Positions 9,837-30,233 of a stretch of 43,455 bases of DNA are shown here, one piece after another. The position numbers were made by a program, and so were the translations under genes. Position 1 is the first letter of the stretch. Each line of letters opens with the position of its first letter. This DNA comes from Actinomyces urogenitalis DSM 15434 (lineage in GTDB: Bacteria; Actinomycetota; Actinomycetes; Actinomycetales; Actinomycetaceae), in NCBI RefSeq assembly GCF_000159035.1, contig NZ_DS999574.1:1197431-1240885 (forward strand), given 5' to 3'. The notes under the pieces were generated by a model. It saw only the letters and a program-made list of their open reading frames with translations, had not been told where the DNA came from and made no database searches.

Positions 9837-10976
9837 ATGCGTACACGTCCTGTGATCGCCGTCGTCGCTATGGCTGCTCTGGCAGTGGCTGGAGCACTGA
9901 GCGCCTGCTCCTCCAAGGAGCCAGTGGCGGTCACTGCGCTCACGCCGTCAGCCTCCGCCAGCGCCGAGCCGAGCGTCAACCCGGTCTTTGTCAAGGCTGC
10001 CAAGGTCTATCGGCAGGTCCTGGCTGATCCGGCTCCATACCTTGGGCTCGATGCGGGCGTGAGCGCGCAGGAGGTCACCTACACCCTCGACCCGCTCGGG
10101 GACGCCTCCACGCCTCGCCTGGTCCTGCAGGCGATGAACCTGGGGCAGGGCCAGGAGACGATCGGCGTCCTGCGTTTCATCAGCGTCCAGCCAGAGGGAG
10201 ACGACGTCACGGTCCTGGACGCCGACTACTCCGTCGGCGTGGCCAGTGCCGGGGGCTTTCGGGGGCAGGTGGCTCGTTCCTCCCAGGGCAAGGGTTTGAT
10301 CTACACCTGGTGGCTCTCGGGCACCGGTGAGGGATCGGTGACCCGGATCACGGCGGGCGCGACCGGGTTCACGCAGGAGCAGCTGTGTGAGGGACAAGTT
10401 GTGCAGGTCTCTTGCCTGCCCGACGGCGAGCAGGGCGAGGAGATCTCCTGGACCGACGCCTCGGACACGAGTCTGCTTGACGCTCTGGAGTCCGGGACGT
10501 GGGACCCGACAGCCTCCGCCTCGCCGGCTAGTGACCAGGGATCGGTCGGTCAGGGCACGCCACTCGGGCAGGGAGGAAAGCTGACCAAGGACCGGCCTGC
10601 TGCCACCAGCCCCAACGGGGACCCGGTCTACACCGGCACTGTGCACATGACTGACTACGACGGAGTGCTCGCCCTGCAGGGGCAGCAGGATCCGAATCCC
10701 GGGTCAGGCCAGTACACCCCTGGACCCTATGCGCTGCTGGTCCTGGACCAGCCGCAGGAGGTCACAGCGACCAACGGCGACGGGCAGGGAACGTCCTCGC
10801 GCACCGCCTCCATGGTGCTGCTGGGCTACGCGGAGCAGGCCTCGGCGTGGAGCCAGTACGACGGCCAGCGAATCTCGGTGTCTCACCCCGCCGCTCAGAC
10901 CTTCTGGCCCTCGGACACCTCCCTGCCTCTGGGAGAGCCGCGTCTGAACGGCGCCGCGACGCTCCTGTCACGCTAA
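9837..10976 (+). CDS. Secreted lipoprotein of unknown function (379 aa)
   Basis: I do not recognise the family. The product begins with a typical lipoprotein signal: RTRP, a hydrophobic stretch of about 17 residues (VIAVVAMAALAVAGA) and the lipobox LSAC, with the modified Cys near residue 25. A Ser/Ala/Pro-rich linker follows (TALTPSASASAEPS). The mature part has no membrane segment. A second low-complexity, Gly/Gln-rich stretch lies around residues 225-275, possibly separating two extracellular domains. The ATG at 9837 has GAAGGA 6 nt upstream, so I reject the longer frame from 9771. It stands alone, transcribed divergently from the acyl-CoA ligases. Confidence 0.8.
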   Translation: MRTRPVIAVVAMAALAVAGALSACSSKEPVAVTALTPSASASAEPSVNPVFVKAAKVYRQVLADPAPYLGLDAGVSAQEVTYTLDPLGDASTPRLVLQAMNLGQGQETIGVLRFISVQPEGDDVTVLDADYSVGVASAGGFRGQVARSSQGKGLIYTWWLSGTGEGSVTRITAGATGFTQEQLCEGQVVQVSCLPDGEQGEEISWTDASDTSLLDALESGTWDPTASASPASDQGSVGQGTPLGQGGKLTKDRPAATSPNGDPVYTGTVHMTDYDGVLALQGQQDPNPGSGQYTPGPYALLVLDQPQEVTATNGDGQGTSSRTASMVLLGYAEQASAWSQYDGQRISVSHPAAQTFWPSDTSLPLGEPRLNGAATLLSR

Positions 10977-11095
10977 GGACCACGGCTGCGACGACGTCGG
11001 CCTGGGGACACCTGGGTAGGCTGAGCCGCAGTCCGGGGCTGAGCGTGATGCCAGCCCGCCTCGCGCCAGTGGGCGCCAAGCCAAGGAGAGCAGAT

Positions 11096-11401
11096 ATGGC
11101 CCTGACCAAGAAGCAGGTCAAGCAGCTGCGGTCGCTGGGACACCACCTCGATCCGCAGGTCATGATCGGCAAGAACGGGCTGACTCCAGGACTGGTGGCC
11201 CAGGCCGAGGCCACGATTGACCAGCGTGAGCTCATCAAGTGCTCGGTCCTGGAGTCCAGTCCCGTGGAGGCCAAGGAGGCGGCTGGTGCGCTGGCCGGAG
11301 AGCTGGAGGCGGAGGTCGTCCAGGTCATCGGCGGCCGTTTCATCCTCTACCGGCGCACGCGCCGTGACGACGTCAAGCCCCTGGAGCTTGTGCGGGACTG
11401 A
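11096..11401 (+). CDS. yhbY: YhbY-type RNA-binding protein (CRM domain)
   Basis: This is a single CRS1/YhbY (CRM) domain protein of 101 aa. The family binds pre-50S particles and takes part in ribosome assembly. The signature is seen in LTKKQVKQLRSLGHHLDP, the GKNGLT loop that corresponds to the RNA-binding turn, the helix GLVAQAEATIDQRELIKCSV and the terminal strand VVQVIGGRFILYRR. The ATG at 11096 has AAGGAGAG at 11083-11090. The longer frame starting at 10847 overlaps the lipoprotein gene and is not credible. It faces the DNA glycosylase gene across a 350-bp gap. Confidence 0.92.
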   Translation: MALTKKQVKQLRSLGHHLDPQVMIGKNGLTPGLVAQAEATIDQRELIKCSVLESSPVEAKEAAGALAGELEAEVVQVIGGRFILYRRTRRDDVKPLELVRD

Positions 11402-11532
11402 GCGCTGAGGGCGCGGGGCGTCCAGGGCTGTCGCTTCAGTGACCGGGGCCGCTGCATCGTGGTCTGAAAGGTGCCTTGTCGCCGTCGTCGGGGTGGCTGG
11501 GGCGTGCTTTGCTGACTGGACCGGCGTTCTGC

Positions 11533-11577
11533 TGATTGGTGCGTACTTGCCAGGCTCTGGCAGGCACGCACCAATCA
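11533..11577. terminator. Very strong 21-bp hairpin after yhbY
   Basis: The arms 11533-11553 and 11557-11577 pair over 21 positions, with one A-C mismatch and one G-U wobble, around a 3-nt loop. It lies between convergent genes and could end transcription from either side. The arms also carry two copies of the 13-nt motif described in the next entry, so it may be part of a repeat element and not a plain terminator. Confidence 0.6.
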
Positions 11578-11693
11578 ACAGGGCACGTAGCAATCGACAA
11601 CCGTGCGTCTCAAAGCAGGATCCGCTGCCTGCACGGGCCGCCGGCAGACACGCCACAGTCACCGATGCACGCAGCAATCGGGAACCTGCGTCT
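11534..11693. repeat. Cluster of four copies of a 13-nt motif in a gene-free gap
   Basis: The gap 11402-11751 contains no credible gene. In it the motif GYACGYASCAATC occurs at 11534-11546 (reversed), 11564-11576, 11583-11595 and 11667-11679. The last two copies belong to longer near-identical units of 27-28 nt (11583-11610 and 11667-11693) that share GCACGYAGCAATC, then AACC and TGCGTCT. Each unit has short complementary ends (GCACG and CGTGC, or ACGCA and TGCGT). I know of no family with this pattern. It could be a small mobile repeat, a protein-binding array or a structured RNA. Confidence 0.6.
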
Positions 11694-11751
11694 GACTGGC
11701 GGTTCGCCGTGTGCTCCTACACGTGCAGTGTCGATGCCGCGGACGGGTCTC

Positions 11752-12447
11752 CTACCGGGGGAGCGTGGCGCGTACCTGCCGCAGGAGGTCCTTGGTCTCG
11801 GGCGGAATCCGCGTCGCGTCCAGGCACTTGGCGATCGCCTTGCGGCGTACCGAGACTGAGAGTCGGCCAGCCAGCTCCTCCTGGGTCAGCCACGGCAGTG
11901 CGGTGCCCGGCTGCTTGGTCACGGCAGTGGCCAGGTACCAGGCGACCATCATCTCCAGGTAGTACTCCTGCGACGTCACTGATGCCACCAGCTCCACGAG
12001 CTCGGGGCGAAAGGCCTCACCCAGGAAGAACTCCATGAGGACACCGATACCGAAGCGACGGGTGTACAGGTGCTCGGCCGCGATCCACCGCCGGGCGGCG
12101 GCCTCCAGCGTCGGCAGGTCACGGCGCAGGGGCTTGGCGCTCATCGAATCGCACACGGCCCAGTTGTCGATGTAAGGCAGGAAGGCCTCGGCGCCGTCGA
12201 GAAACTGCTGGGGGTCCTTGGACTGGCTAAGCAGCAGGCCGTGGAGCATGTTCTCGTCAAAGAGCCGGTGAGGCAGGGTCTGGAGGAACTCGGCGACCTC
12301 CCCGGGACGCTCCCGCCAGGACTCCTTGGCGTAGGCGCGCAGCGCGGGCACGCGCGCCCCCATGATCGTGTCGGGGTCGATATGCGGCACCAGACGGGCG
12401 ACGAAGTCGGCGTTGCCGGGGTCCGCGAGGTGGGCCACGCTCAGCAT
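11752..12447 (-). CDS. DNA alkylation repair protein (AlkD-like HEAT-repeat glycosylase)
   Basis: This family excises alkylated bases (3-methyladenine and 7-methylguanine type lesions) using a superhelix of HEAT-like repeats. The 231-residue protein shows the conserved central block YIDNWAVCDSMSAKPLRRD and the helix pair RFGIGVLMEFFL. An expected tryptophan- and tyrosine-rich groove follows (EYYLEMMVAWYLAT). The C-terminus has VRRKAIAKCLDATRIPPE. The long open frame continuing to 12765 is a shadow: the true ATG at 12447 is preceded by CACAAT plus 6 nt and no ribosome binding site, so a leaderless mRNA is likely. It is a single-gene unit divergent from valS. Confidence 0.88.
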   Translation of the reverse strand: MLSVAHLADPGNADFVARLVPHIDPDTIMGARVPALRAYAKESWRERPGEVAEFLQTLPHRLFDENMLHGLLLSQSKDPQQFLDGAEAFLPYIDNWAVCDSMSAKPLRRDLPTLEAAARRWIAAEHLYTRRFGIGVLMEFFLGEAFRPELVELVASVTSQEYYLEMMVAWYLATAVTKQPGTALPWLTQEELAGRLSVSVRRKAIAKCLDATRIPPETKDLLRQVRATLPR

Positions 12448-12453
12448 GGCTCT

Positions 12454-12459
12454 ATTGTG
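12454..12459 (-). promoter_or_regulatory. -10 element of a leaderless promoter (AlkD-like gene)
   Basis: CACAAT (minus strand) is followed by 6 nt and the ATG at 12447. No Shine-Dalgarno sequence is present. Confidence 0.45.
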
Positions 12460-12640
12460 CCTGGTCCATGGCGCGAGCACGCCGTTGGTCGGGGAGGAGG
12501 GCACGTCGACAGATGACGTCGGTGCGCCATGCCAGGTCGCCTGGATGCTCGTGGCGCGGGGCGACGTCGTAGCCCACCTCACAGGGCGGGAGCGCCGCCC
12601 GCTTGGGGCTCTCCCTGGTGACCATGACAGAATCAGGGCC

Positions 12641-15454
12641 ATGTCTGGAACTGAGCCCTCTCCGCGGATCCTCCCCTCCGAGCTCCACAGCCCCCGAGTC
12701 CCCAGCAAGGTCAGCGCCGACGGTCTGGAGGCCGCCTGGGGCAAGCGCTGGGAGGAGGACGGCACCTACGCCTTCGACCGCTCCGCCGAGCGTCATGAGG
12801 TCTACTCCATCGACACCCCGCCGCCCACGGTCTCCGGCTCCCTGCACGTGGGCCACGTCTTCTCCTACACCCACACTGACACCGTCGCTCGTTACCAGCG
12901 CATGCGCGGCATGTCCGTCTTCTACCCCATGGGCTGGGATGACAACGGCTTGCCCACCGAGCGCCGCGTGCAGAACTACTTCGGCGTGCGCTGCGACCCG
13001 TCCCTGCCCTACGACCCCGACTTCGTCCCCCCGCACGCCGGTGGCGAGGGCAAGTCCATCAAGGCTGCCGACCAGGTGCCGATCTCGCGACGTAACTTCG
13101 TCGAGCTGTGCGAGCGCCTGACTGTTGAGGACGAGGCTCAGTTCGAGGCACTGTGGCGTCACCTTGGCCTGTCGGTTGACTGGAAGCAGAACTACCAGAC
13201 CATCGGCGTGCGGGCCCGCAAGGTGGCTCAGGCCGCCTTCCTGCGCAACCTCGCTCGTGGCGAGGCCTACCAGGCCGCGGCCCCTGGCCTGTGGGACGTG
13301 ACCTTCCAGACCGCCGTCGCCCAGGCTGAGCTCGAGTCGCGCGAGTACCCGGGTTTCTACCACCGCCTGGCCTTCCACGTCGTCGACCCTGCCGCGGCCC
13401 AGGCCGCCAAGGACGCCGGCGCCCCCATCGAGGAGGGCCCGGCCGGTACCGCGGACATCTGCATCGAGACCACGAGACCCGAGCTCCTGCCGGCCTGCGT
13501 GGCCCTCATCGCCCACCCTGACGACGAGCGCTTCAAGCCTCTGTTCGGTACCACCGTCGCCTCCCCGGTCTTCGGCGTCGAGGTCCCCGTCCTGCCCCAC
13601 CCTGAGGCGGAGATGGACAAGGGCGCCGGCATCGCCATGTGCTGTACCTTCGGTGACACCACGGACATCGACTGGTGGCGTGACCTCGACCTGCCCCTGC
13701 GCGCGATCCTGCGTAAGGACGGTCGCCTGGAGACCGAGACCCCCGAGTGGATCACCGACGCCCACGGCCGCGAGGTCTATGAGGCGATGGCTGGCAAGAC
13801 CACCTTCTCCGCTCGCAAGGTCCTGGTTGATGAGCTGACGGCGACCGGCGAGATGCGCGGCGAGCCCACCAAGACGGTGCGTCAGACCAACTTCTTCGAG
13901 AAGGGCGACAAGCCCCTGGAGATCGTCACCTCTCGCCAGTGGTACATCCGCAACGGTGGCAAGGCCTGGACCAACCCGGCCACCGGTAAGGACCTGAACG
14001 CTGAGCTGCTGGAGCGCGGCGCGGAGCTCGACTTCCACCCCGACTTCATGCGGGTGCGTTACGAGAACTGGGTCAAGGGGCTGAACAACGACTGGCTGAT
14101 CTCCCGCCAGCGCTTCTTCGGCGTCCCCTTCCCGCTGTGGTACAAGGTCGGCGCCGACGGCGAGGTCGACTACGACGCGATCATCACCCCTGAGGAGTCC
14201 GCCCTGCCAGTGGACCCGTCCTCTGACCCGGCTCCCGGCTACACCGAGGACCAGCGTGGGGTGCCCGGCGGCTTCGTCGGTGAGCTCGACATCATGGACA
14301 CCTGGGCCACCTCCTCCCTGTCCCCGCAGCTGGTCTCGGGCTGGCTGGAGGACGAGGACCTCTTCGCTCGTGTCTACCCCATGGACCTGCGCCCGCAGGG
14401 CCAGGACATCATCCGTACCTGGCTGTTCTCCTCCGTGGTGCGTGCTGACCTGGAGTTCGGCGCTCTGCCCTGGAAGCACGCTGGCATCTCCGGGTGGATC
14501 CTGGACTCTGACCACAAGAAGATGTCCAAGTCCAAGGGCAATGTGGTCACGCCCATGGGTCTGCTGGACAAGTACGGTTCGGACGCCGTGCGCTACTGGG
14601 CTGCTTCGGCCCGCCTGGGACTGGACCCGGCCTTCGAGGAGGCCCAGATCAAGGTTGGCCGCCGCCTGGCAATCAAGGTCCTCAACGCCTCCAAGTTCGC
14701 TCTGTCGATGGGCGTGCCGTGGGACGCTGACGAGGCGACGCTGGCTGCCGTGCCAGCCCCGAGCCTGGACGTGACCAAGGTGACCGAGCCGATTGACCGG
14801 GCGGTGCTGGCCGCGCTGGCTGGCGTCGTCGACACCGCGACGGCTGCCTTCGACCGCTACGAGCACGCTCGCGCGCTGGAGGCGACGGAGTCCTTCTTCT
14901 GGACCTTCTGCGACGACTACATCGAGCTGGTCAAGGACCGCGCCAACGACTTCGAGGGCACGCACGATGCCGCTGCGGTGGCCTCGGCCCGCACCACCCT
15001 CGCTATTGCGGTGGACACCTTTGTGCGCCTGTTCGCTCCCTTCCTGCCCTTCGTCACCGAGGAGGTGTGGTCCTGGTACCGCACCGGTTCGGTGCACCGC
15101 GCTGCCTGGCCCACCGCCGAGGGGCTGCGGGCGGGCGCCGGCGAGGCGGACGCCGAGCTCGTGGTGCATGCTGGTGTAGCGCTTGCGGCGCTGCGCAAGG
15201 TGAAGTCGGAGGCCAAGGTCAGTCAGAAGACGCCGATCCTCTCGGCGAGCCTGACCGTGGCTCCGGAGCTGGTCGCGGCGGTGGAGGCCGTGCGCGCTGA
15301 CCTGCTGGAGGCCGCCAAGGTCACCGGTACCTTCGAGGTCGCGGCTGGCGCGCCGTCGGCCGCCGGGACGACGGCGGAGGGGGACGAGGCCGTCCAGGCG
15401 GCTCCCGTAACGGTCACTGCCGTCGAGCTGGGGGAGCCTCCGGCCAAGCGCTGA
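12641..15454 (+). CDS. valS: Valine--tRNA ligase
   Basis: This is a class I aminoacyl-tRNA synthetase that charges tRNA-Val and edits mischarged threonine. The 937-residue protein has the HIGH motif as HVGH (69-72) in PPPTVSGSLHVGHV and KMSKS at 627-631. The editing (CP1) domain lies between them, with TTRPELLPACVALIAHPDD, and the anticodon-binding domain and a short C-terminal region follow. MGWDDNGLPTERRVQN is typical of the archaeal-like, type 2 ValS that many actinobacteria carry. The ATG at 12641 is preceded by CAGAAT and 7 nt, without a convincing ribosome binding site. I reject the upstream frame from 12362, which overlaps the divergent gene. A 1007-residue open frame on the opposite strand is a GC-bias shadow. 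Confidence 0.96.
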   Translation: MSGTEPSPRILPSELHSPRVPSKVSADGLEAAWGKRWEEDGTYAFDRSAERHEVYSIDTPPPTVSGSLHVGHVFSYTHTDTVARYQRMRGMSVFYPMGWDDNGLPTERRVQNYFGVRCDPSLPYDPDFVPPHAGGEGKSIKAADQVPISRRNFVELCERLTVEDEAQFEALWRHLGLSVDWKQNYQTIGVRARKVAQAAFLRNLARGEAYQAAAPGLWDVTFQTAVAQAELESREYPGFYHRLAFHVVDPAAAQAAKDAGAPIEEGPAGTADICIETTRPELLPACVALIAHPDDERFKPLFGTTVASPVFGVEVPVLPHPEAEMDKGAGIAMCCTFGDTTDIDWWRDLDLPLRAILRKDGRLETETPEWITDAHGREVYEAMAGKTTFSARKVLVDELTATGEMRGEPTKTVRQTNFFEKGDKPLEIVTSRQWYIRNGGKAWTNPATGKDLNAELLERGAELDFHPDFMRVRYENWVKGLNNDWLISRQRFFGVPFPLWYKVGADGEVDYDAIITPEESALPVDPSSDPAPGYTEDQRGVPGGFVGELDIMDTWATSSLSPQLVSGWLEDEDLFARVYPMDLRPQGQDIIRTWLFSSVVRADLEFGALPWKHAGISGWILDSDHKKMSKSKGNVVTPMGLLDKYGSDAVRYWAASARLGLDPAFEEAQIKVGRRLAIKVLNASKFALSMGVPWDADEATLAAVPAPSLDVTKVTEPIDRAVLAALAGVVDTATAAFDRYEHARALEATESFFWTFCDDYIELVKDRANDFEGTHDAAAVASARTTLAIAVDTFVRLFAPFLPFVTEEVWSWYRTGSVHRAAWPTAEGLRAGAGEADAELVVHAGVALAALRKVKSEAKVSQKTPILSASLTVAPELVAAVEAVRADLLEAAKVTGTFEVAAGAPSAAGTTAEGDEAVQAAPVTVTAVELGEPPAKR

Positions 15455-15478
15455 GCTCCACGTTCTGCGTGACATGAC

Positions 15479-15526
15479 GCCACGGGACGGTCCACCGGGA
15501 GAGAATCCGGCGAACCGCCCCGTGGC
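15479..15526. terminator. Bidirectional terminator between valS and the sugar operon
   Basis: The arms 15479-15491 and 15514-15526 form 12 of 13 pairs, with one A-C mismatch. The loop contains a smaller CCGG/CCGG repeat. It serves convergent transcription units: valS on plus and the oxidoreductase operon on minus. Confidence 0.65.
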
Positions 15527-15538
15527 TTCTGCCTGTGA

Positions 15539-16609
15539 CTAGGAGGCTGAGGACACGACCTGCATGGTCGCGCAGTCGACCACACCTCCTTGGTATGCAG
15601 CCGAGATCAGGGCGGCCTCGACGATCGTCGCGGTGCGGGTCCCTGCAGCACCGTCAGGCACGGGGGCGTGCCCGTCGCGGATCCCGCGCTTGAACGCGTC
15701 GATCATCTTGGCGTCGAGGTTCTCACCGAATCCGAGGAAGAGCGCGCGCCTGCCCTCATCGGTCATGCCAGACAGCCCGTGGCCGAACGGCGCGATGTGC
15801 GCGAGCGTCGTGGTTGTCAGCACGTCAAGCGTGAGGCCGCCCCACACAGGTGCCTGGGAGGGCTGGCTCCACGAGCAGTCGATGCTCAGGCTCAGTCCGT
15901 TGGCGTACTCGACCTGAACCAGGCCCGCCGTCTCGGCATCGACGCCGGGGACGGCGCGGTGGAGAATCTGGTTGGAGACCGCGCGGACCCGGACAGGCTC
16001 GGACTCAAACAGCGCGTCGGCCAAGTCGGCGACGTGGACGGTGTGGTCCACGAGTGCTCCACCGCCTGCGAGCCTGGGATCAGTGAACCAACGACGGTCA
16101 CCAACTGGGATCTTGCCGTTATTGGTCCCGCTCAGGGCGACGACGCTGCCAAGCTCGTTGCGCCTGATGGCGGTGGCCAGGTCCTGGAACTCGGCCGCGA
16201 AGCGTACCGGGTAGGCAACCATGAGGAAGACCCCGGCGTCGGCAGCCAGGGCGGTGTAACGCTGAGCCTCGGCGCGGGTTACCGCGAGCGGTTTCTCGCA
16301 CAGCATGGGGACACCGGCCGCTGCGGCCATCTCGATGAGCTCACCGTGGCGGGTGTTCTCGGAGCAGATGATGACTCCGTCGGGTTTCCAGGCGAAGAGC
16401 TCCTCATAGGTGTCGACGTAGCTGACTCCCAGGTGATCGGCTAGTGCCCGGCCGCGCAGCTGCCCGGGTTCAGTGGCAGAGGTCTGTGCACCATCCGGGT
16501 CGGCACACAGTAGCGTGACGTCTGGCATGGAGGCCAGCAGCGTGGCATATCCAGCAGCATGGACATGAGCGAAGGAAGCGACAGCAATCTTGAGTTGACG
16601 CGGCATCAT
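15539..16609 (-). CDS. Gfo/Idh/MocA family oxidoreductase, last gene of the operon
   Basis: This belongs to the family of NAD(P)-dependent sugar and polyol dehydrogenases. The 356-residue protein has an N-terminal Rossmann domain and a C-terminal alpha/beta domain. The catalytic Lys lies in CEKPLA (E105, K106, P107), and the catalytic His region is GGGALVDHTVHVADL at about 182-196 (D188, H189, H192). The usual GxGxxG loop is replaced by VASFAHVHAAG, as in a subset of the family, so cofactor binding may differ. Its start at 16609 overlaps the stop of the preceding gene by 4 nt (ATGA), so the two are translationally coupled. The substrate is unknown, probably the ligand of the adjoining ABC importer or a product of it. 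Confidence 0.88.
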   Translation of the reverse strand: MMPRQLKIAVASFAHVHAAGYATLLASMPDVTLLCADPDGAQTSATEPGQLRGRALADHLGVSYVDTYEELFAWKPDGVIICSENTRHGELIEMAAAAGVPMLCEKPLAVTRAEAQRYTALAADAGVFLMVAYPVRFAAEFQDLATAIRRNELGSVVALSGTNNGKIPVGDRRWFTDPRLAGGGALVDHTVHVADLADALFESEPVRVRAVSNQILHRAVPGVDAETAGLVQVEYANGLSLSIDCSWSQPSQAPVWGGLTLDVLTTTTLAHIAPFGHGLSGMTDEGRRALFLGFGENLDAKMIDAFKRGIRDGHAPVPDGAAGTRTATIVEAALISAAYQGGVVDCATMQVVSSAS

Positions 16610-17634
16610 GCCACCTCCAGGTTGTGGCAGGTCACGGGGCTGTTGGTCTGGATAGAACGTGCCACCGCCTGGGCAAGGCGGATCGCCGCGATTCCATCGA
16701 TGGCGCTCACGACTGGTTCATGGTCGTGGTGCGCACGGGTGGCCAGGAAGTCCTCGATCTCGGCGGTGTACGGAGAAGGGCTTGAGGACGAGGGGATCGT
16801 GGTAGCCCCGTCGCTGCCGCCGTTGGTGGAGATGGGCAGGTCGTGGGCGGAGGCGTAGCTGAGCTTGCCGGTGGTGCCTGCCAGGGAGAACTCCGTGGTG
16901 AACCGCATTCCCGGCGGTCCCCAGATCGCTTGAACCTGACTGACTGCGCCGGAAGAGTGTGTCAGGGTGCAGTCAAGCATCTCGATGGGCAGATCGCCCT
17001 CGCCCTGAGCGTGGGCCAGGGTGGCGTAGACCGTGTCGACCGGTCCGGCAATCCACAGGGCTTGATCCAGGTCATGGATGGCGAGGTCCATGACAAGGCC
17101 ACCTGAACGTTCCTCATCAGCAAACCACGAGGACCAGCTCGGGTAAGAACCAGCCCGACGGAACCTGCAGACGGCCAGCTGCCCGATCTCACCACGCTCG
17201 ACCGCCTTCTTGGCCTGCACGTAGGCCGGGAAGAATCGCACCACGTGTGCGGGATAGAGCGTGCGGTGACATGAATGAGCGAGGGACGCGATCTCTTCAG
17301 CCTGGTCTAGCGTGCGCGCCAACGGCTTCTCGCACAGGACATCGAGTCCTGCCTCCAACGCCTGTCGAGCGAGCTCTGCGTGGGTGTCCGTGGGTGTACA
17401 GATATCAACGGCCTCCACACTCTCAAGCATCTCAGGCAGTTGCGAGCAGACCTGGATCGGTACGTGCCGTCCTCCGGTCAGACCAGGATTGCGCTCCTGC
17501 ATCTGCTCCAGCTCACGGGCGAACTCCTCGGCACCCTGAAGCGAGTACAGGTAGATCGCTTGGGCGTGGGCGAGCCAGCCCGGCGCATGGGCACGGGCGA
17601 TACCGCCTGTGCCAATGATTCCAAGAGAGATCAC
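16606..17634 (-). CDS. Gfo/Idh/MocA family oxidoreductase, fifth gene of the operon
   Basis: This is a canonical family member of 342 aa. The dinucleotide loop GIIGTGGIA (G5, G8, G10) begins the Rossmann domain, CEKPLA carries the catalytic Lys (103), and GGLVMDLAIHDLDQALW holds the substrate-domain His. It has not diverged in the Rossmann loop, unlike the next gene. The start is GTG at 17634 with GAAAGG about 9 nt upstream. Only 5 nt separate it from the permease stop, and it overlaps the last gene by 4 nt. Two different oxidoreductases side by side suggest consecutive oxidation and reduction steps on one sugar skeleton, such as a keto-intermediate route, which is inference. Confidence 0.9.
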   Translation of the reverse strand: MISLGIIGTGGIARAHAPGWLAHAQAIYLYSLQGAEEFARELEQMQERNPGLTGGRHVPIQVCSQLPEMLESVEAVDICTPTDTHAELARQALEAGLDVLCEKPLARTLDQAEEIASLAHSCHRTLYPAHVVRFFPAYVQAKKAVERGEIGQLAVCRFRRAGSYPSWSSWFADEERSGGLVMDLAIHDLDQALWIAGPVDTVYATLAHAQGEGDLPIEMLDCTLTHSSGAVSQVQAIWGPPGMRFTTEFSLAGTTGKLSYASAHDLPISTNGGSDGATTIPSSSSPSPYTAEIEDFLATRAHHDHEPVVSAIDGIAAIRLAQAVARSIQTNSPVTCHNLEVA

Positions 17635-17639
17635 GAGAA

Positions 17640-18503
17640 TTAACCTTTCATTCCAGAGAAGGCGAGTCCCTCGACGACGCGCTTTTGCAGCAGGAGGAAC
17701 AGAATGAGAACGGGTGCCATGGCCATTACCGAGGCCGCCATCATGACCGAGTAGTCGACCTCGGTCCGGCCGGCCAGCGTGGCAATTCCAGCGCTCAGTG
17801 GCATCGAGGTCTCACGAGTAGTGACAACTAAAGGCCACAGCAGGTCATTCCAGGACCAGAGGACGGTGGTAATGGCAACTGCGGACAGGCCGGGGCGGGC
17901 CAGAGGCAGCATGACCTTCCAGAAGGTCTGGAAGGGGGAAGCCCCGTCCAGACGTGCTGACTCTTCCAGCTCACGCGGCAGTGACATGAAGGACTGACGC
18001 ATCAGGAAGGTACCGAAGGCAGAGAAGATACCCGGCAGTGCTACGCCCCAGGGGGTCTCCAGCAGATGGAGGTCCTGGATGATCTGGTACTGCGGGATCA
18101 GGTAGACCTGGCCTGGCACCATGAGGATGGCCAAGATGAGGGCAAGGATGGCTCCCTTAAAGGGAAACCGCAGACGGGCGAAGGCATAACCGGCCAACGA
18201 GCACAGGATAAGTTGGCCGAGGGTACGGATCACTGTGATCAGGACGGACACTCCGAGCTGGTTGAGGAAAGGTAGCTTGGTAAAGACGTCCACGTAGTTG
18301 TGCCACTGCGGCGTCTCCGGGAAGAACCGGACCGGAACCGCTTGGATCTCAAAGTTGGTGGAGATCGACATGATCAATTGCCAAATAAAGGGAAAGACCA
18401 TGACGATCGAGGCCAGACACAGTGCGATATGAGCCCAGGTGTCATTGCGCTTGACCCTGCGGGTGGGAGTCAATGCGCCCTTCTTGAGTGGCAGATTAGG
18501 CAA
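17640..18503 (-). CDS. ABC sugar transporter permease, MalG/UgpE type
   Basis: This is an inner-membrane permease of a CUT1-class carbohydrate importer, 287 aa. Six transmembrane helices can be traced, starting at IALCLASIVMVFPFIW. The EAA loop that docks the ATPase is EESARLDGASPFQTFWKVMLP at about 190-210. The C-terminus VVEGLAFSGMKG is typical of MalG homologues. The start appears to be a rare TTG at 18503 inside the end of the preceding permease gene (8-nt overlap), because no ATG or GTG lies at a sensible place. Its partner is the next gene upstream. The operon has no ABC ATPase, so a shared MsmK-like ATPase elsewhere is likely. Confidence 0.92.
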   Translation of the reverse strand: MPNLPLKKGALTPTRRVKRNDTWAHIALCLASIVMVFPFIWQLIMSISTNFEIQAVPVRFFPETPQWHNYVDVFTKLPFLNQLGVSVLITVIRTLGQLILCSLAGYAFARLRFPFKGAILALILAILMVPGQVYLIPQYQIIQDLHLLETPWGVALPGIFSAFGTFLMRQSFMSLPRELEESARLDGASPFQTFWKVMLPLARPGLSAVAITTVLWSWNDLLWPLVVTTRETSMPLSAGIATLAGRTEVDYSVMMAASVMAMAPVLILFLLLQKRVVEGLAFSGMKG

Positions 18504-19425
18504 GATACTGCACCCACTTCTTCTGTAGCTTGAACTGGAGCGCGGTCAGGATTCCAACGACGAGCAGGATGGCCATCGCGATCGCCGCGGCATACCCCTT
18601 GTGGTTGACCATGAAGGCCTCGTTGTAGAAGAGGTAGACAAAGGTGCGGGTATGGGGCATAGCGGGATTGTTTGAGCCCATCATGGCGAAGAGAAGGTCG
18701 AAGACCTGGAACCCGTTGATTGCCTGAATAACCGTGAGGAAGAAGATAGATGGAGTGAGGAGTGGGACGGTAATGGAACGGAACTGGCGCCAGTGGGAGG
18801 CGCCATCGATCGAGGCTGCCTCGTAGAGCTCGGAGGGAATTGCCTGCAGACCAGCTGACAGGATGATCATGTTGAATCCAATGGAAGACCACATCCCTAC
18901 GATTGACACTGCCACGATGGCAAAACCGGGTGTGGAGGTCCAGTAGGGCGGATCAGAGATACCAATGCTCCGTAGGGCCTGATTGATAATTCCGAAGTCC
19001 CCATTAAACATCAGACGCCATACCAGTGCGATTGCTGTAGGCATTGCGATGTAAGGCATGAAGAAAGCAATCCGATAGAGCTTGGCGAAGCGCAGCCCTG
19101 GCCTGGAGATCAGCGACGCAAATATCACTGCGATCGGGATCCCCAGCATGAGGACCACGGTGTAGGTCAGGGTGTTGACAGTGGCGTTGCCAAAGGCGGA
19201 GTCGGTCGCCAGCTTCTCGTAGTTAGCCAGTCCGACGAATTTGGAAGAGGTGCCAAAGACATTGGGCTGGGTGAAAGAGGAATAGAAGTTCTTCAGGATC
19301 GGGTAGAGGTAGAACACCGCCACGCCGGCGAGGACCGGAAGCACGAATAGCGCTCCGGTCCTCGCCTCAGCGAGGTGGATCCGACCGCGCGGCCTGGTCC
19401 TGGTCCGCTCGGGAGATCGCTGCAT
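18496..19425 (-). CDS. ABC sugar transporter permease, MalF/UgpA type
   Basis: This is the second membrane subunit of the importer, 309 aa, with six transmembrane helices beginning at GALFVLPVLAGVAVFYLYP. The EAA loop is YEAASIDGASHWRQFRSITV at about 205-224. The basic N-terminus (RSPERTRTRPRGR) is cytoplasmic. The ATG at 19425 lies 4 nt past the stop of the binding-protein gene, and the ribosome binding site (GGAG) sits inside the end of that gene. Codon use here is less GC-rich than in the housekeeping genes around it (frequent ATT, AAA and GAA), as across the whole operon. Confidence 0.92.
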   Translation of the reverse strand: MQRSPERTRTRPRGRIHLAEARTGALFVLPVLAGVAVFYLYPILKNFYSSFTQPNVFGTSSKFVGLANYEKLATDSAFGNATVNTLTYTVVLMLGIPIAVIFASLISRPGLRFAKLYRIAFFMPYIAMPTAIALVWRLMFNGDFGIINQALRSIGISDPPYWTSTPGFAIVAVSIVGMWSSIGFNMIILSAGLQAIPSELYEAASIDGASHWRQFRSITVPLLTPSIFFLTVIQAINGFQVFDLLFAMMGSNNPAMPHTRTFVYLFYNEAFMVNHKGYAAAIAMAILLVVGILTALQFKLQKKWVQYLA

Positions 19426-19429
19426 GGGG

Positions 19430-20704
19430 TTACTCCGACTGCAGCGCTTCGTTCATCTTGGCGGCGAGCTCCTTACAGACCTCAGACACGTCCCGCTTGC
19501 CAGAGAAGGCCTCAGGCAGGAGCTGCTCCTCGAAGTCGTTCCACACCTGGGTGTTCCTGGATACCGGGTAGGGCACGGCATAGTCAGTGGCCGCTTCAGC
19601 AAATGCCTTCATGTTCCACTGAGGCTGGGAGTCTTGGAAGGTCTCCTGTGTGCCGTTGAAGGCGGGGTTGGCGATGCCTAGTTCAGCTTCCCTCAGATGC
19701 TGCTCCTTCTGTGCCAGGAAGGAGACGAAAGCCTTGGCGGCCGCCTTGTTCTCTGAGCCAGCTGCCACGACCGTGGTCAGACCGTGGATGACCGAGGCGC
19801 GCTGCTCGCCCTTGGGCAGGGGCGCGATGTCCACGTGGTCCTTGTTCGGCAGTTTCTCGGCGAACTCGGAGACGATCCAGGTTCCGGACCAGGTCATGGC
19901 TGCCTTCTCGGACTCGAACATGACGTTGGGCTTGGTATCCGCCATCGCTTCCAGGGACGGGCTGGCGCCTGAGGCGATGAGCTCTTTCCAGAACTCGATC
20001 CCCTTGATCGACGCATCGTGGTCGTAGCCGGACTTGCCATCCTCAATGATGAAGCCGCCTGCTTGATGGACGGTGTTGTACCAGCCCTCCTGTCCTCCAG
20101 CCAGGCCGGTGGCAACGCCGTAGACACCGTCGTCCTTCAGAGCAGTCGAGATGGTGTTCGCCGTCGTTGTGAAGTCCTCCCAGGTCCAGTCCTCCTGGGG
20201 GTAGGCCACCCCAGCGGCATCGAAGAGCTTCTTGTTATAGAACACAGCGACGGTGTCGTAGTCCTTGGGGACGCCGTAGTGCTTGTCCTCTACCGTGTAG
20301 AGGTCCACCAACGCCTGCGGGTAGTTGTCCCATGAGACATCAGCCAGGTCGTCCAGGGGTTCCAGCATTCCGTTGGATGCGTAAAGCTCGATATGCGGAC
20401 CATTCATCCAGAACAGATCTGGGAGATTGTCCCCCTCGGCCTGGGTCTGCAGCTTGGTCCAGTACTGTGCATAGGGCGTGATCGAGGTTGTAATGCTGAC
20501 CTCGGGGTGGAGTTTGACGAACTCTGCGATGTGCTGGTCGATGGCCACCTTCTGGTTCTGGTCCCAAAAGGAGAAGGTTAGGTTGCCCGTGATCTTGCCG
20601 TCAGAGCCGCCCGAGTCCTCGCCTCCTCCACAGGCAGCCAGGGTGAGGGCGACTCCGGTTGCCAGGCCGCTGGCCAGTGCGGTGCGACGGGAGATGGTGC
20701 GCAT
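19430..20704 (-). CDS. Extracellular sugar-binding lipoprotein of the ABC importer
   Basis: This is a periplasmic-type solute-binding protein of the maltose/oligosaccharide cluster, 424 aa, anchored to the membrane as a lipoprotein. The signal has a twin-arginine-like start (ISRRTALASG) and the lipobox LAAC with Cys 25, followed by a GGGEDSGGSDG linker. Recognisable family blocks are FSFWDQNQ, PDLFWMNGPHIELYA, YGVPKDYDTVAVFYNKKLFDAAG and AAMTWSGTW. The aromatic residues in these blocks line the sugar site in relatives. The ATG at 20704 has AAGGAG with good spacing. The gap to the ROK-oxidoreductase gene is 42 nt. Which sugar is bound cannot be read from the sequence. Confidence 0.93.
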   Translation of the reverse strand: MRTISRRTALASGLATGVALTLAACGGGEDSGGSDGKITGNLTFSFWDQNQKVAIDQHIAEFVKLHPEVSITTSITPYAQYWTKLQTQAEGDNLPDLFWMNGPHIELYASNGMLEPLDDLADVSWDNYPQALVDLYTVEDKHYGVPKDYDTVAVFYNKKLFDAAGVAYPQEDWTWEDFTTTANTISTALKDDGVYGVATGLAGGQEGWYNTVHQAGGFIIEDGKSGYDHDASIKGIEFWKELIASGASPSLEAMADTKPNVMFESEKAAMTWSGTWIVSEFAEKLPNKDHVDIAPLPKGEQRASVIHGLTTVVAAGSENKAAAKAFVSFLAQKEQHLREAELGIANPAFNGTQETFQDSQPQWNMKAFAEAATDYAVPYPVSRNTQVWNDFEEQLLPEAFSGKRDVSEVCKELAAKMNEALQSE

Positions 20705-20746: not shown

Positions 20747-23080
20747 TCACGACTGCTTGCGCTGGTTGTTGTTGAAGTAGTTGATGAGGTCGTCAGGGAG
20801 GGGTGGAATCTGCTCGGGGCGCGACCCGTGGCGTAGGGAATCGGTGGCCTGAATGCCTGCAGCGACGGCGTACCAGGCGCCTAACGGTGAGGTATCCGTC
20901 GGCGCTCCATCGCGCACGAATCGGATGAATTCGGTGACCGTGAGGACATCAGCATCGCTATGGCCGCCGGCATCTCCCAGGATGGGGAAGGAAGTGTCCC
21001 CGTCAGGGGAGTAGTCCGAGCGCGAAGCCCATAGCCGGATGAGCCCGCCCTCGCCGTCGCCGAAGTTCTCGATCCGGCCCTCGGTGCCGATCACGGTGTA
21101 GTTGCGCCAGTAGTCGGGTGTGTAGTGGCACTGCTGGTAGGAGGCGTAGACGCCGGACTCCATACGCATCAGCATCATCGACAGGTCTTCGACGTCGATG
21201 GTCGGGTTGAGCCGCTCCTGGGCGAGAGGAGGCCAGTGGCTGGTGGCGAACCAGTCGCTCATCAGCTCATCAGAGTTGTCCGCCCTGCTGGCGACCTGGT
21301 CGTAGAGGGTCAGGCCTCCCATAGCCACTACCTCGTTTGTGTGAGAGTCGGCGAGCCAGTGCATGACATCGATATCGTGGGCGGCCTTCTGCAGCAGCAG
21401 ACCACCGACGTGACTTCGTTCGGCGTGCCAGTCCTTGAAGTAGTAGTCCCCGCCGTGGCCGACGAAGTGGCGGCACCATATGGCCTTGACCTCGCCGATA
21501 CGGCCGGAGCGGATGATGTCACGCATGGACCGCACGACGTTCATGTGCCGCATGTTGTGTCCGACGTACAGACCTGTGCCTGTGCGATAGGCGGTCTGGA
21601 GGATCCGGGTGGCTCCCTCGAGATCGATGGCTAGTGGCTTTTCCAGGTAGACCGGGATACCTGCTTCGAGCAGGTCGCAGGTGACCGAGGCGTGGGTGTC
21701 GTCAGGGGAGGTGACAAAGGCAATGTCGATGCCGGTCTTGACGAGTTCTTCGACGCTGCTGGTGACCGATAGCGAGTCCGGATCGCGTCGAAGGCGCTCA
21801 CGCACGCGCTCACGCACGAGTGGGTGGGGATCACACACTGCGGTGATGTGCGCGTTGTTCTCTGGGCGTTCGCATGCTAGGGCAAAACGTGAGCGCGCGC
21901 CGACGCCAACGATGCCTGCGCGTAAGGTCTCTGGCTTGCTGGACGATTGGAACAGGTTCATGACACTGTGAGATCCCTTCATAGAGGCTGCCGTGATGCT
22001 GGCGGTACCGGTGAGATGTACAGGGGTCGGAGAAAGGACTCCGGTCAGGACAGTGCCTGCTGCTGCCAGCGCCGTGTGGATAGCGCCGATGACAGAACCG
22101 GCTCCCTCCAGCTCCGCTAGCTCTAGGCGGATTCGTGAGCCGTTCTTGTCCTGGAGATCGTCTAGGCGCTGGATGACTTGGAGGATGGCGTCTCGCATAT
22201 GGGCGTTGGAGGCGGAGAGCACGACGATGTCTGGATCGAGGACTGCCGAGACCGTGGCGATGGCCAAGGCCGTACGCGACATCCACTCCTCATCTGGCTC
22301 GTCGCCGGTGCGTAGATCGATGAGCTCGGAGATCTCTCCAGCTTTCCAACGACGTCCGCGGTGGACCTGGCCGTCGAGGATGAGCCCCGTGCGGGGCCCC
22401 CGGGTGAACTGGACCAGAAACAGGCACGAGTCTGCTTCAACCCGGTGTTCTTGGTATCGCAACGTGTACTCGCCGAAGGCGGCCATATTGATGTCGTTCT
22501 CGACTATGACCTGTACGCCCAGAGCCTGGGCCAGGCGTTCGGCAAGAGGAAAACCGGACCACACCGGGACAAAGTCAGAAGCGACGATGGAGCCGTCTGG
22601 GTCGACGACGCCGGTTGCTGAGACGCCTACCGCTAGTAGTCGCCCTGAGTCCTGCTGGGCCTGGGCAGCCTCGTGGATGAACGAGCTCAGCTGAGACAGG
22701 CGGCGGTCGGCATTGTCGGTGTCCAGGGTGTACTGGTGGGCGAGGAGAACCTCTCCTCGCAGGTTGACCACAACCAGGAGCATTGAGGTGGCTAGTAGGT
22801 CGACGCCGATGATGATTCCTGCATCTGGGCGGATGCGCCAAGAGGTTGCGGGCCGTCCTACCCCCTGGTCGCTGAGTGAGGCTTCTTCAGCAAGGCTGTT
22901 AGCGCACAGCTCGTCAAGGGTGGCGGTGACAGTCGGGCGGGAGTATCCGGTCTCCTGAGCGAGGAGCGAGACTGTCGTTGTCTGGTGGCGCCGTAGTGCT
23001 GCCAGGACGGCGTCGACCCTGGTGCAGTGTCCGTCCGTACGCGGACGAATTCGCTGATCTGAGGAGGTGCGAGTGCTCAT
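20747..23080 (-). CDS. ROK-family transcription factor fused to a Gfo/Idh/MocA oxidoreductase (777 aa)
   Basis: Two complete modules lie in one uninterrupted frame. Residues 1-85 are a winged helix typical of ROK repressors (QETGYSRPTVTATLDEL). Residues 88-350 are a ROK domain with the ATP-binding loop GVDLLATS (92-99) and ENDIN with D196, but without the usual His and CxCGxxGCxE zinc motif: the region reads KAGEISELIDLRTGDEP. Residues 374-777 are a full Gfo/Idh/MocA enzyme with GIVGVGARS (389-397), E480-K481-P482 and GGLLLQKAAHDIDVMHW (H568, D571). The start is ATG at 23080 with AAAGGG 7 nt upstream. M374 (at 21961) is preceded by AAGGG and could act as an internal start. As first gene of the operon, the protein could both control it and work in its pathway, which is inference. 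Confidence 0.9.
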   Translation of the reverse strand: MSTRTSSDQRIRPRTDGHCTRVDAVLAALRRHQTTTVSLLAQETGYSRPTVTATLDELCANSLAEEASLSDQGVGRPATSWRIRPDAGIIIGVDLLATSMLLVVVNLRGEVLLAHQYTLDTDNADRRLSQLSSFIHEAAQAQQDSGRLLAVGVSATGVVDPDGSIVASDFVPVWSGFPLAERLAQALGVQVIVENDINMAAFGEYTLRYQEHRVEADSCLFLVQFTRGPRTGLILDGQVHRGRRWKAGEISELIDLRTGDEPDEEWMSRTALAIATVSAVLDPDIVVLSASNAHMRDAILQVIQRLDDLQDKNGSRIRLELAELEGAGSVIGAIHTALAAAGTVLTGVLSPTPVHLTGTASITAASMKGSHSVMNLFQSSSKPETLRAGIVGVGARSRFALACERPENNAHITAVCDPHPLVRERVRERLRRDPDSLSVTSSVEELVKTGIDIAFVTSPDDTHASVTCDLLEAGIPVYLEKPLAIDLEGATRILQTAYRTGTGLYVGHNMRHMNVVRSMRDIIRSGRIGEVKAIWCRHFVGHGGDYYFKDWHAERSHVGGLLLQKAAHDIDVMHWLADSHTNEVVAMGGLTLYDQVASRADNSDELMSDWFATSHWPPLAQERLNPTIDVEDLSMMLMRMESGVYASYQQCHYTPDYWRNYTVIGTEGRIENFGDGEGGLIRLWASRSDYSPDGDTSFPILGDAGGHSDADVLTVTEFIRFVRDGAPTDTSPLGAWYAVAAGIQATDSLRHGSRPEQIPPLPDDLINYFNNNQRKQS

Positions 23081-23124: not shown

Positions 23125-23140
23125 ATCTTTAATGAAAGGG

Positions 23141-23168
23141 AGTTTAGCAAGCTGTCTGCATAATGCAA
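23141..23168 (-). promoter_or_regulatory. Promoter of the sugar operon
   Basis: On the minus strand, TTGCAT (-35, 23168-23163) and TAAACT (-10, 23146-23141) are separated by 16 bp. Transcription would start near 23134, leaving a leader of about 54 nt that carries the candidate operator. Confidence 0.5.
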
Positions 23169-23223
23169 GTGGGAACGACGATAGAGAAACGGGCTGGGTG
23201 GGCCACTGCGATGTGGCGTTCTG

Positions 23224-28440: not shown

Positions 28441-28556
28441 GTCAGCCTGATCCTGCCTACGCCTACCTGAGCCGAGCTGGCGGGGCTTGCGCAACCGTCG
28501 TCAACGGTGCGTACTCAATCACACGCTGAGTCCAGATTGCGTAAGTGAGGAGTGGC

Positions 28557-30233
28557 ATGAGAGCCCAGCACGGCTTCCACGACGCCGTCGTCTACCAGGT
28601 CTACCCCAAGTCCTACCGGGACACCGACGGCGACGGCGTCGGGGACCTGCGAGGGGTGATCGAGAAGGTCCCCTATATCGCCTCCCTCGGGGTGGACTAC
28701 GTCTGGCTCAACTCCTTCTACCCCTCACCGGGGCGGGACAACGGCTATGACATCGCCGACTACCGGGCCATCGACCCGGCCATGGGTGCGATGGAGGACT
28801 TTGACGCTCTGACCCAGGCGCTGGCGGCGCACGGCATCAGCCCTATGCTCGACATGGTCCTCAACCACGTCTCCACCCAGCACGCCTGGTTCCAGGCCGC
28901 GCTTGCAGGCCACCAGCGCTACCGCGACTACTTCTACATCCGTCCCGCCAAGGCTGACGGCTCGCTGCCCACTAACTGGGTGAGCAAGTTCGGTGGACCG
29001 GCACGGGCTCCCTTCGGGCCGGTGGATCAGGACGGGCGTCCGATGTCCGGGGAGTACGGTTTCTCCAGCCTCATCGGTGTCATCACCGGCTCCATGATCC
29101 CGGTCATCGGCGTCTTGGCGGCCTCCGGCATCCTCAAGGGCATCCTGGCCCTGCTCACCCAGCTCGACGTGGTGGACTCCGGGACCCCGACCTACACCTT
29201 CATCGACGCCATGAGCTCGTCGATGTTCTACTTCCTGCCCATCATCATCGGCTTCACCGCGGCCCGCCGCCTGGGGGCGGACCCCATCATCGTGGCGATC
29301 ATCGGTGGGGTGCTGACCTATCCCAGCGTCGTGGCCATGTCCAACCCGGCCACCGAGGGCCACACCGTCACCGCTCAGATCGGACGTACCGTCTTCAACT
29401 CTGACTTCTTCGGCCTGCCCGTGGCGCTGCCGGAGGGCAACGCCTACGCCTACTCCATCTTCCCGATCATCGTGGCAGCCTGGCTGGCCTCGCGCATCGA
29501 GCCCTGGCTGAAGAAGGTCATCCCCGCCGTCGTGCGATCGATCTTTGCCCCGCTGCTGGAGATCTTCATCGTCTCCGCCCTCGTGCTCGTGGTCTTCGGC
29601 CCGATCGTCATGACGATCTCGGGAGCCATCGCCTCTGGCATGACCTGGGTGCTCTCCCTGTCCTAGCCAGTGGCGGGCTTCGTCATCGGTGGCCTGTACC
29701 AGTGCCTGGTCATCTTCGGCCTGCACTGGGCCGTCATCCCTATCATCTCCCAGCAGATCGCAGACCCGGGATACTCGCCGCTCAACGCCATCGTCTCGGT
29801 GTCCATGATCGCCCAGGGCGGTGGGGCGCTGGCGATCTGGATCAATGCCAAGAACGTACGGGTCAAGCGCCTGGCAGGACCTGCCACGATCTCGGCGATG
29901 TGCGGGGTGACCGAGCCGGCCATGTACGGCCTCAACCTCAAGTACGGCCGGGTCTTCATCACCGCCTCGATCGGTGAAGCCGTGGGCGGCCTGCTCACTG
30001 GGCTCTTCGACGTCAACATGTGGGGCTTCATCGGCGCCTTCGTCGGCTTCCCCTCCTTCGTCAACCCCGAGGGGCTTAACTCCTCCTTCACCGGCTTCTG
30101 GATCGCCTCGGTGGTCACTCTGGTCGTGTCCTTCGTGTGCACGTACTTCTTCGGTTTCAAGGAATCGGACTTCGAGACGGAGAAGAAGGTGGAGAAGGTA
30201 CGCCTGGGTAACCGCGAGCCCGTGGCGCGCTAG
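28557..30233 (+). pseudogene. Chimeric remnant: trehalose-6-phosphate hydrolase N-terminus joined to PTS EIIC
   Basis: Residues 1-155 match the start of a TreC-like GH13 enzyme (VVYQVYPKSYRDTDGDGVGDL, NGYDIADY, LDMVLNHVS, NWVSKFGGPA). The frame then runs straight into a PTS glucose-type EIIC domain (FSSLIGVITGSMIPVIGVLA and following), which suits a trehalose permease. The GH13 nucleophile and acid/base, and the EIIB domain with its phosphorylated Cys, are missing. A TAG at 29664-29666 then interrupts the EIIC. The same frame continues to 30233 with good EIIC sequence (GGLYQCLVIFGLHW, VTEPAMYG). The start has GAGGAG at 28547-28552. An internal deletion followed by a nonsense mutation explains it best. 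A genome assembly error at the junction is an alternative. Confidence 0.85.

Follow-up and report, generated by a model that had tools for sequence, protein, structure and literature searches.

In the 43,455-nucleotide stretch of the Actinomyces urogenitalis DSM 15434 genome analyzed here (the window; contig NZ_DS999574.1, positions 1,197,431 to 1,240,885), one gene on the minus strand (20747..23080) joins a winged helix and a ROK-derived domain, through a flexible linker, to a domain of the Gfo/Idh/MocA oxidoreductase family. The gene is a real, conserved fusion of a regulator and an enzyme. In the clade to which it belongs, the linker carries a conserved Shine-Dalgarno (SD)-like site followed by a start codon, and the comparison of related sequences indicates that the gene probably yields two products, the full-length regulator-enzyme and a predicted free enzyme. 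The fusion had been pointed out in an earlier note on the window; the location on the minus strand, the absence of two ROK motifs, the conserved SD-like site and start codon in the linker, and the possible free enzyme are additions to that description. The explanation that best accounts for the whole, which we are somewhat more inclined to accept than to doubt, is that the gene encodes a self-regulating regulator-enzyme.

Architecture and catalytic sites of the fused protein

The open frame begins with an ATG at 23080 and its stop codon ends at 20747. The claim that ROK and Gfo/Idh/MocA parts lie in one uninterrupted frame of 777 residues was borne out by the frame itself, by Pfam matches, and by an AlphaFold2 model. 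The winged helix (residues 16-82, 22835..23035, minus strand) gave a sub-threshold match to MarR_2 at residues 25-65 (E 3.8e-5; 24.2 bits against a model cut-off of 27 bits), the model places helices at residues 16-60 together with wing strands, and all 34 aligned fused rows share the residues R48 P49 T50 and R76 P77 A78. The ROK-derived domain (residues 91-346, 22043..22810, minus strand) exceeded the curated Pfam cut-off (72.3 against 22.9 bits, residues 91-250) in a match limited to profile positions 2-155 of 294, roughly half, and the ROK half matched the structure of MecR2 (4ija) with a Z-score of 30.6 across model residues 20-359. Three matches over their curated cut-offs were found in the enzyme half (residues 386-777, 20750..21925, minus strand): GFO_IDH_MocA (69.7 bits, residues 386-508), GFO_IDH_MocA_C3 (74.4 bits, residues 516-671), and GFO_IDH_MocA_C (53.3 bits). 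The mean predicted local distance difference test (pLDDT) score of the model is 91.3 and its predicted template modeling (pTM) score is 0.61; the pLDDT falls below 50 only at residues 1-10 and 375-381, the latter being the linker. As read from its sequence and predicted structure, the protein begins with a winged helix and a ROK fold that has lost two signature motifs; a short, flexible linker then leads into a Gfo/Idh/MocA domain in which the conserved sites are all intact.

The ROK half was compared with the family motifs, ExGH and the zinc motif, as listed in the part of PMC5458393 that was available. No ExGH histidine was found at the aligned site in any of the 34 fused ROKs, where AGE(V/I/L) is present; the four ExGH pattern matches in fused sequences are located away from this site. 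The zinc motif, CxCGxxGCx(E/D), was detected in 0 of the 34 fused ROKs and 0 of 11 other ROK rows. The eight ROKs of split pairs, in which ROK and Gfo are separate genes, likewise have no histidine at the ExGH site and no zinc motif. Among eight ROK paralogues of the A. urogenitalis genome, seven have ExGH and six the zinc motif, and the same part of PMC5458393 describes a kinase, FnNanK, that also has no zinc motif. Because both the ExGH histidine and the zinc motif are absent, the domain was classed as ROK-derived and not as a canonical ROK repressor. It retains N195, D196, E204, and E249, and the N-D pair that holds the aspartate of the active-site loop (N195 D196) is invariant in all 34 aligned fused rows.

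The Rossmann loop, EKP, and HD motifs of the enzyme half are intact, as previously proposed, with G392 G394 R396, E480 K481 P482, and H568 D569 kept. These residues, together with Q564 K565 and with H707, which lies within G-H-x-D-A-D, are invariant in the 34 aligned fused rows. Across 49 aligned Gfo domains, selected from the available fused, split, and solo ones, these columns are likewise invariant, with the exception of G392 (more than 90%). Gfo/Idh/MocA dehydrogenases typically have an aspartate four residues ahead of the catalytic histidine. That aspartate is not present here, and its position is taken by Gln564, which does not vary among either the fused rows or the 49 Gfo domains; because of this replacement, the enzyme half was not classed as a plain dehydrogenase.

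The six best Foldseek matches of the enzyme half are structures of nicotinamide adenine dinucleotide (NAD)-dependent sulfoquinovosidases, and the structure 8qc2 has E-K-x-x-H at the position where the fused family has Q-K-x-x-H. The sugar contacts of ArSqgA include Lys107, His193, Glu189, and His321, according to the portion of PMC10755693 that was accessible. The invariant K481 and H568 match Lys107 and His193 (at the C3-OH), and Gln564 replaces the glutamate. These likenesses make an oxidoreductive glycosidase a live option for the enzyme half, to be held tentatively at this stage. In its full form, this reading takes the enzyme half as an NAD-dependent glycoside hydrolase (GH) of the GH188/GH109 type that would act through transient C3 oxidation, with no net dehydrogenase activity, and it is compatible with a self-regulating regulator-enzyme. 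The invariant H707 would be the counterpart of the histidine that these glycosidases have in their C-terminal half (His321/His404), but the sequence alignment did not place one on the other, since the five listed PDB profile alignments ended before H707 or did not include SqgA. Moreover, the Z-scores for SqgA, levoglucosan dehydrogenase, and 1,5-anhydrofructose (1,5-AF) reductase are tied (34.5, 34.5, and 34.4, at 18-24% identity in the structural alignments). Hydrolysis of this type is therefore possible without being probable.

Relatives and fusion history

The fusion is conserved well beyond one genome, as the earlier note had suggested might be checked: 36 distinct intact fusions were found in several lineages, repeats of the same gene being excluded from the total. 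Twenty-seven belong to clade A (Actinomycetaceae and Propionibacteriaceae) and nine to group B (Microbacterium, Krasilnikoviella, Isoptericola, and others), and together they span Actinomyces, Cutibacterium, Acidipropionibacterium, Tessaracoccus, Arachnia, Microbacterium, Promicromonosporaceae, and others. With the A. urogenitalis genome counted, a full-length frame without a stop was present in 6 of 49 genomes of the genus, the other five at 57-66% identity, and a full-length open frame in 9 of 213 genomes of the family. The best 80 named loci (numbered with an L below) comprise 28 intact fusions, 41 Gfo genes without a joined ROK, seven adjacent ROK/Gfo pairs (L082, L094, L101, L106, L107, L109, and L131), three broken fusions (L064, L073, and L085), and one fusion truncated by a contig end (L095, whose contig begins inside the ROK part). 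Among 394 sampled genomes of the class, a match at E 1e-60 or better was present in 33. Of the six stretches of this sample that were read, three were fused (G318, G366, and G475), which with the A. urogenitalis genome makes four known fusions, and no ROK was seen in the other three (G572, G594, and G438). A TGA had been flagged in the match of G475, which is the same gene as L062, yet its 779-codon frame proved open on reading.

A sequencing artefact or a missed stop was ruled out, as many independent assemblies, some of them made up of one or two contigs (G007, G027, and G034), show no interruption of the frame. The genus, family, named-locus, and class searches likewise ruled out a fusion unique to this genome. 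The notion that close relatives might all carry two separate genes was not borne out: the close ones keep the single frame, and two genes are seen in some relatives. The genomes that carry L070 and L069 also harbor second, divergent copies of the fusion (L072 and L100), which have no internal start and, on their strand, no downstream importer like that of the window. The ROK part is broken by an early in-frame stop in L064 and by a frameshift in L073, with the enzyme frame intact in both, and both parts are broken in L085.

A tree of the ROK parts was built with 59 rows, including eight paralogues taken from the 12 other ROK matches of the A. urogenitalis genome; for this tree and for the linker analyses, the open frames of L060, L071, and L100 were shortened by eye to remove upstream extensions. 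The 27 fused ROKs of clade A, the nine of group B, eight split ROKs, one broken ROK, and the ROKs of L086, L088, and L093 form one subfamily (100/99), separate from the eight paralogues. The last three lie near solo Gfo genes, on the opposite strand in L086 and L093, and given these cases the ROK-Gfo partnership may extend beyond genes that lie side by side. The ROKs of L089, L098, and L117, located some kilobases from solo Gfo genes, fall outside the subfamily. A constraint grouping only the fused, split, and broken ROK rows was not rejected (approximately unbiased test, p-AU 0.409).

Clade A is one group in the ROK tree (100/100, with the broken L073 included), and group B falls in two parts, of which the Microbacterium part is sister to the split pair L101 (100/99). 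The Gfo tree (109 rows) likewise recovers clade A as a single group of 33 rows (SH-aLRT 91, not starred) in which a few losses have occurred, and it places group B elsewhere. About three fusion events would be the simplest reading of these trees; one older fusion followed by several splits could also have produced them.

In five of the eight split pairs (L082, L043, L094, L107, and L109), the two genes share a few bases, and the Gfo start lies inside the final ROK codons with an SD-like stretch ahead; L101, L106, and L131 have a gap. With such overlaps, one small change joins the genes. The fusion could then be a tether without coupling, in which overlapping genes lost a stop and the two halves keep independent jobs, with no allosteric meaning. 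The domain arrangement, which looks loose from the pTM score beside the high pLDDT and from the disordered linker, also speaks for such a tether. Against it, the join persists through two families in clade A and is present in further clades. In addition, since the split partner ROKs also have neither the ExGH histidine nor the zinc motif, the partner regulator was already unusual. We consider such an uncoupled tether rather unlikely.

The linker as a candidate translation start

The candidate internal start in the A. urogenitalis gene is the ATG of Met374 (21959..21961, minus strand), with a candidate SD sequence, AAGGGA, 12 nt before it (21974..21979, minus strand). Initiation there would give a predicted second product of 404 amino acids (20747..21961, minus strand), a free-standing Gfo enzyme. 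Comparison with relatives showed that a start codon stands at the same column in 24 of the 27 clade-A genes (21 ATG and 3 TTG; the remaining three have none), and that the usual site of the clade is K-G-x-H-x-x-M, encoded as AAAGGA-N12-ATG. The internal site ranked first to sixth in anti-SD energy among the 23-64 in-frame ATG, GTG, and TTG codons of each gene and first in eight genes, in a ranking that took in 23 start-bearing members (L065 was left out) and used the best-scoring codon within the final 35 residues, which introduces a slight favorable bias. The mean anti-SD energy of the 24 start-bearing genes was -9.49 kcal/mol, compared with -6.68 kcal/mol for synonymous resamples, and none of 300 resampled sets was as low.

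The codons themselves point in the same direction. Gly369 is encoded by GGA in 18 of 24 genes, the most GGA-rich of 49 glycine columns (the next has 36%), and Lys368 by AAA in 15 of 18, the most AAA-rich of eight lysine columns (the next has 25%). Codon choice in the linker thus favors ribosome binding. L031 has different residues at the site (NRRHTTL), yet AGGAGG precedes its TTG. L064 and L073 retain an intact internal site and enzyme frame despite their damaged ROK part, as expected if the enzyme is made alone. In group B, a strong site was found in L099 and weaker ones in L083 and L096 (L133 was not scored).

SD-like stretches can pause ribosomes. The linker could therefore slow elongation without serving as a start site, in which case the gene would have a single product. 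The position of the stretch at the domain boundary is consistent with this explanation, as is L070, in which a weak SD-like stretch remains although the start codon is gone. On the other hand, three of the four leucine codons at the start column are TTG, which has a background share of 7.3%. Furthermore, the two sister genes without a start codon, L072 and L100, also have no SD (-1.8 and -2.5 kcal/mol), and split relatives begin Gfo from a similar site. A single product is accordingly judged unlikely.

Several points weigh against a functional internal start. L070 has lost the start codon (CTC) and keeps -6.2 kcal/mol, a value equal to that of the start-bearing L030. As L072 and L100 are sisters, their joint loss of start and SD is a small sample. 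A five-codon scan for synonymous conservation did not place the linker within the top 15 of 716 windows, and the KG peptide is itself SD-prone, so that individual genes frequently do not stand out (in L030, 64% of synonymous resamples are equally strong). The rows are related, so that the P values of the column tests overstate independence, and both the column and energy tests were chosen post hoc, after the motif had been seen. Finally, L077, L080, L103, L119, and L134, most of group B, have no convincing internal start. The clade-A sequences strongly suggest that the linker continues to serve as a translation start, as in the overlapping two-gene relatives.

Operon, proposed mechanism, and known systems

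The earlier note placed the gene at the head of an operon for an importer and two more dehydrogenases, and the downstream genes, all on the minus strand, agree with this. They encode the solute-binding protein of an ATP-binding cassette (ABC) importer (19430..20704, SBP_bac_1 match), ABC permease 1 (18496..19425) and ABC permease 2 (17640..18503), both with BPD_transp_1 matches, a free-standing Gfo/Idh/MocA protein (gene a, 16606..17634, Pfam match), and a second free-standing protein of Gfo/Idh/MocA type (gene b, 15539..16609), matched by NCBIfam Gfo-type models always under their equivalog cut-offs. Of the 21 named clade-A loci with an intact fusion, 17 have a related importer (solute-binding protein and both permeases) downstream of it, the others being L057, L070, L072, and L100. 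The phylogenies and gene neighborhoods together show, at the level of sequence comparison, two halves from partner families that were fused in several lineages, mostly ahead of an importer.

Other neighborhoods differ. Two additional Gfo genes lie downstream in three Promicromonosporaceae loci (L077, L080, and L119). In L083 (Microbacterium), an Opp-type ABC operon is found downstream (10376-15802; BPD_transp_1, two ABC_tran with oligo_HPY, and SBP_bac_5), and the downstream genes of L099 resemble it as far as gene sizes and order alone can indicate. A GH4 glycosidase gene lies downstream of the fusion in L103 (10458-11813); GH4 is another NAD-dependent glycosidase family, as mentioned in the accessible portion of PMC10755693. 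In Cutibacterium avidum, matches to threonine dehydrogenase and glycine C-acetyltransferase come next after the permeases, which leaves the fused Gfo as the only sugar-type enzyme seen at that locus. The substrate was not found, as the NCBIfam matches of the Gfo half are far under their equivalog cut-offs and the neighbor genes vary among clades.

A candidate promoter and operator (23127..23169, minus strand) was read by eye upstream of the fused gene: CTTGCATTATGCAG at 23169-23156, a -10-like TAAACT at 23146-23141, and CTTTCATTAAAG at 23138-23127. Palindromes of the type CTTnCGnAAG occur upstream of many relatives. With up to one mismatch, the consensus CTTNCGNAAG was found in 19 of 42 upstream regions (100 shuffles: mean 2.2, maximum 6), and exact copies were found in seven (shuffles: mean 0.1, maximum 2); L043, L086, and L088 were excluded from the set. 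The sites of the window itself match CTTNCGNAAG poorly. As the regions used for the counts were also those from which the consensus had been chosen by eye, the pattern is taken as an operator lead only.

Elsewhere in the window, on the plus strand, a frame at 28545-29663 opens with one third of an alpha-amylase domain, its N-terminal part (profile 1-136 of 446), and continues into the beginning of a phosphotransferase system (PTS) EIIC component (3-187 of 319), and the next frame (29670-30230) holds the remaining EIIC (profile 199-317). The region 28545-30230 has the appearance of a sugar PTS locus that has been rearranged or has decayed.

We propose a mechanism in which one mRNA would give rise to the full-length regulator-enzyme and the free enzyme. 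The ROK half would bind palindromes at its own promoter and repress the operon, while the enzyme half would act on an imported glycoside or sugar with bound NAD. Through its occupied or empty state, or through assembly with free subunits, the enzyme half would relieve repression, and the operon would thereby respond to the substrate of its own enzyme. The enzyme half would thus be the sensor, as the earlier note had ventured. Indirect support for a fused sensor comes from the absence of two signature motifs in the ROK half, from the retention in the enzyme half of columns that do not vary in free-standing relatives, and from the apparently repeated fusion of the two partner genes. The persistence of N195, D196, and E249 weighs against this assignment, as the ROK pocket may still bind a ligand.

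Gal80 is a non-catalytic relative, and a pure sensor of this kind, in which the Gfo half binds NAD and ligand and has lost catalysis, could leave the chemistry to the two further Gfo genes of the window or of the Promicromonosporaceae loci, but it is improbable because E480 K481 P482, Q564 K565, H568 D569, and H707 are identical in fused, split, and solo enzymes and because the C. avidum locus shows no other sugar-type enzyme. If the self-regulating regulator-enzyme is taken further, a single gene would supply a catabolic enzyme both free and covalently tied to its own repressor. Mixed oligomers would make the substrate or NAD state an operator switch, reading the amount and occupancy of the enzyme at the promoter. 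Actinomycetota would then have evolved, more than once, a trigger enzyme that acts in cis and carries an internal translation start of its own. We regard this extended version as speculative and doubtful as a whole.

If the proposal is correct, the known fusions of regulators and enzymes, PutA and MocR among them, gain a new pairing, ROK with Gfo/Idh/MocA, in genera some of whose species are human-associated (Cutibacterium and Actinomyces). The relatives would form a natural series, from separate to overlapping to fused genes with or without an internal start, showing how a pair can fuse without losing the second product. The idea of a fused sensor becomes directly testable in culturable strains. 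No description of a ROK-Gfo fusion was found among the papers listed in searches of the open-licence PMC literature, a scope that does not exclude subscription papers.

Several known systems share features with the fused gene. The parts of PMC5293562 at hand describe trifunctional PutA as a protein with DNA-binding and dehydrogenase domains in one polypeptide that represses its own regulon. The fused protein likewise joins a predicted DNA-binding part and an oxidoreductase-family part in one chain and is proposed to repress its own operon; however, PutA combines ribbon-helix-helix and flavoenzyme domains instead of a winged helix, a ROK domain, and a Gfo domain. PutA is not known to yield a further product by internal initiation. 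MocR/GabR proteins have a winged helix and an enzyme fold in one chain, as stated in the section of PMC6677901 that could be consulted. The fused protein differs from them in having a sugar oxidoreductase with its conserved sites kept and a ROK domain in between. The aminotransferase-like domain of MocR/GabR is the sensor.

ROK repressors (XylR/MecR2, and by name only NagC and Mlc) share the winged helix and ROK fold, including the GRPA and ND residues, but the fused protein has neither the ExGH histidine nor the zinc motif and carries an entire enzyme at its C-terminus. SqgA (GH188), levoglucosan dehydrogenase, and 1,5-AF reductase have the fold, EKP, and HD in common with the enzyme half, which is only distantly identical to them, as noted above, and is joined to a regulator. 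Two proteins from one gene have been described for Cas11b, through an internal in-frame start (PMC11899642, available in part), and for VirF, through a leaderless mRNA (PMC5101355, also available in part). The fused gene is predicted to resemble them in encoding two same-frame proteins; in contrast, its predicted short product is a complete metabolic enzyme, to which the long one adds its regulator. By analogy, the fused protein would work like PutA or MocR while being a member of neither family.

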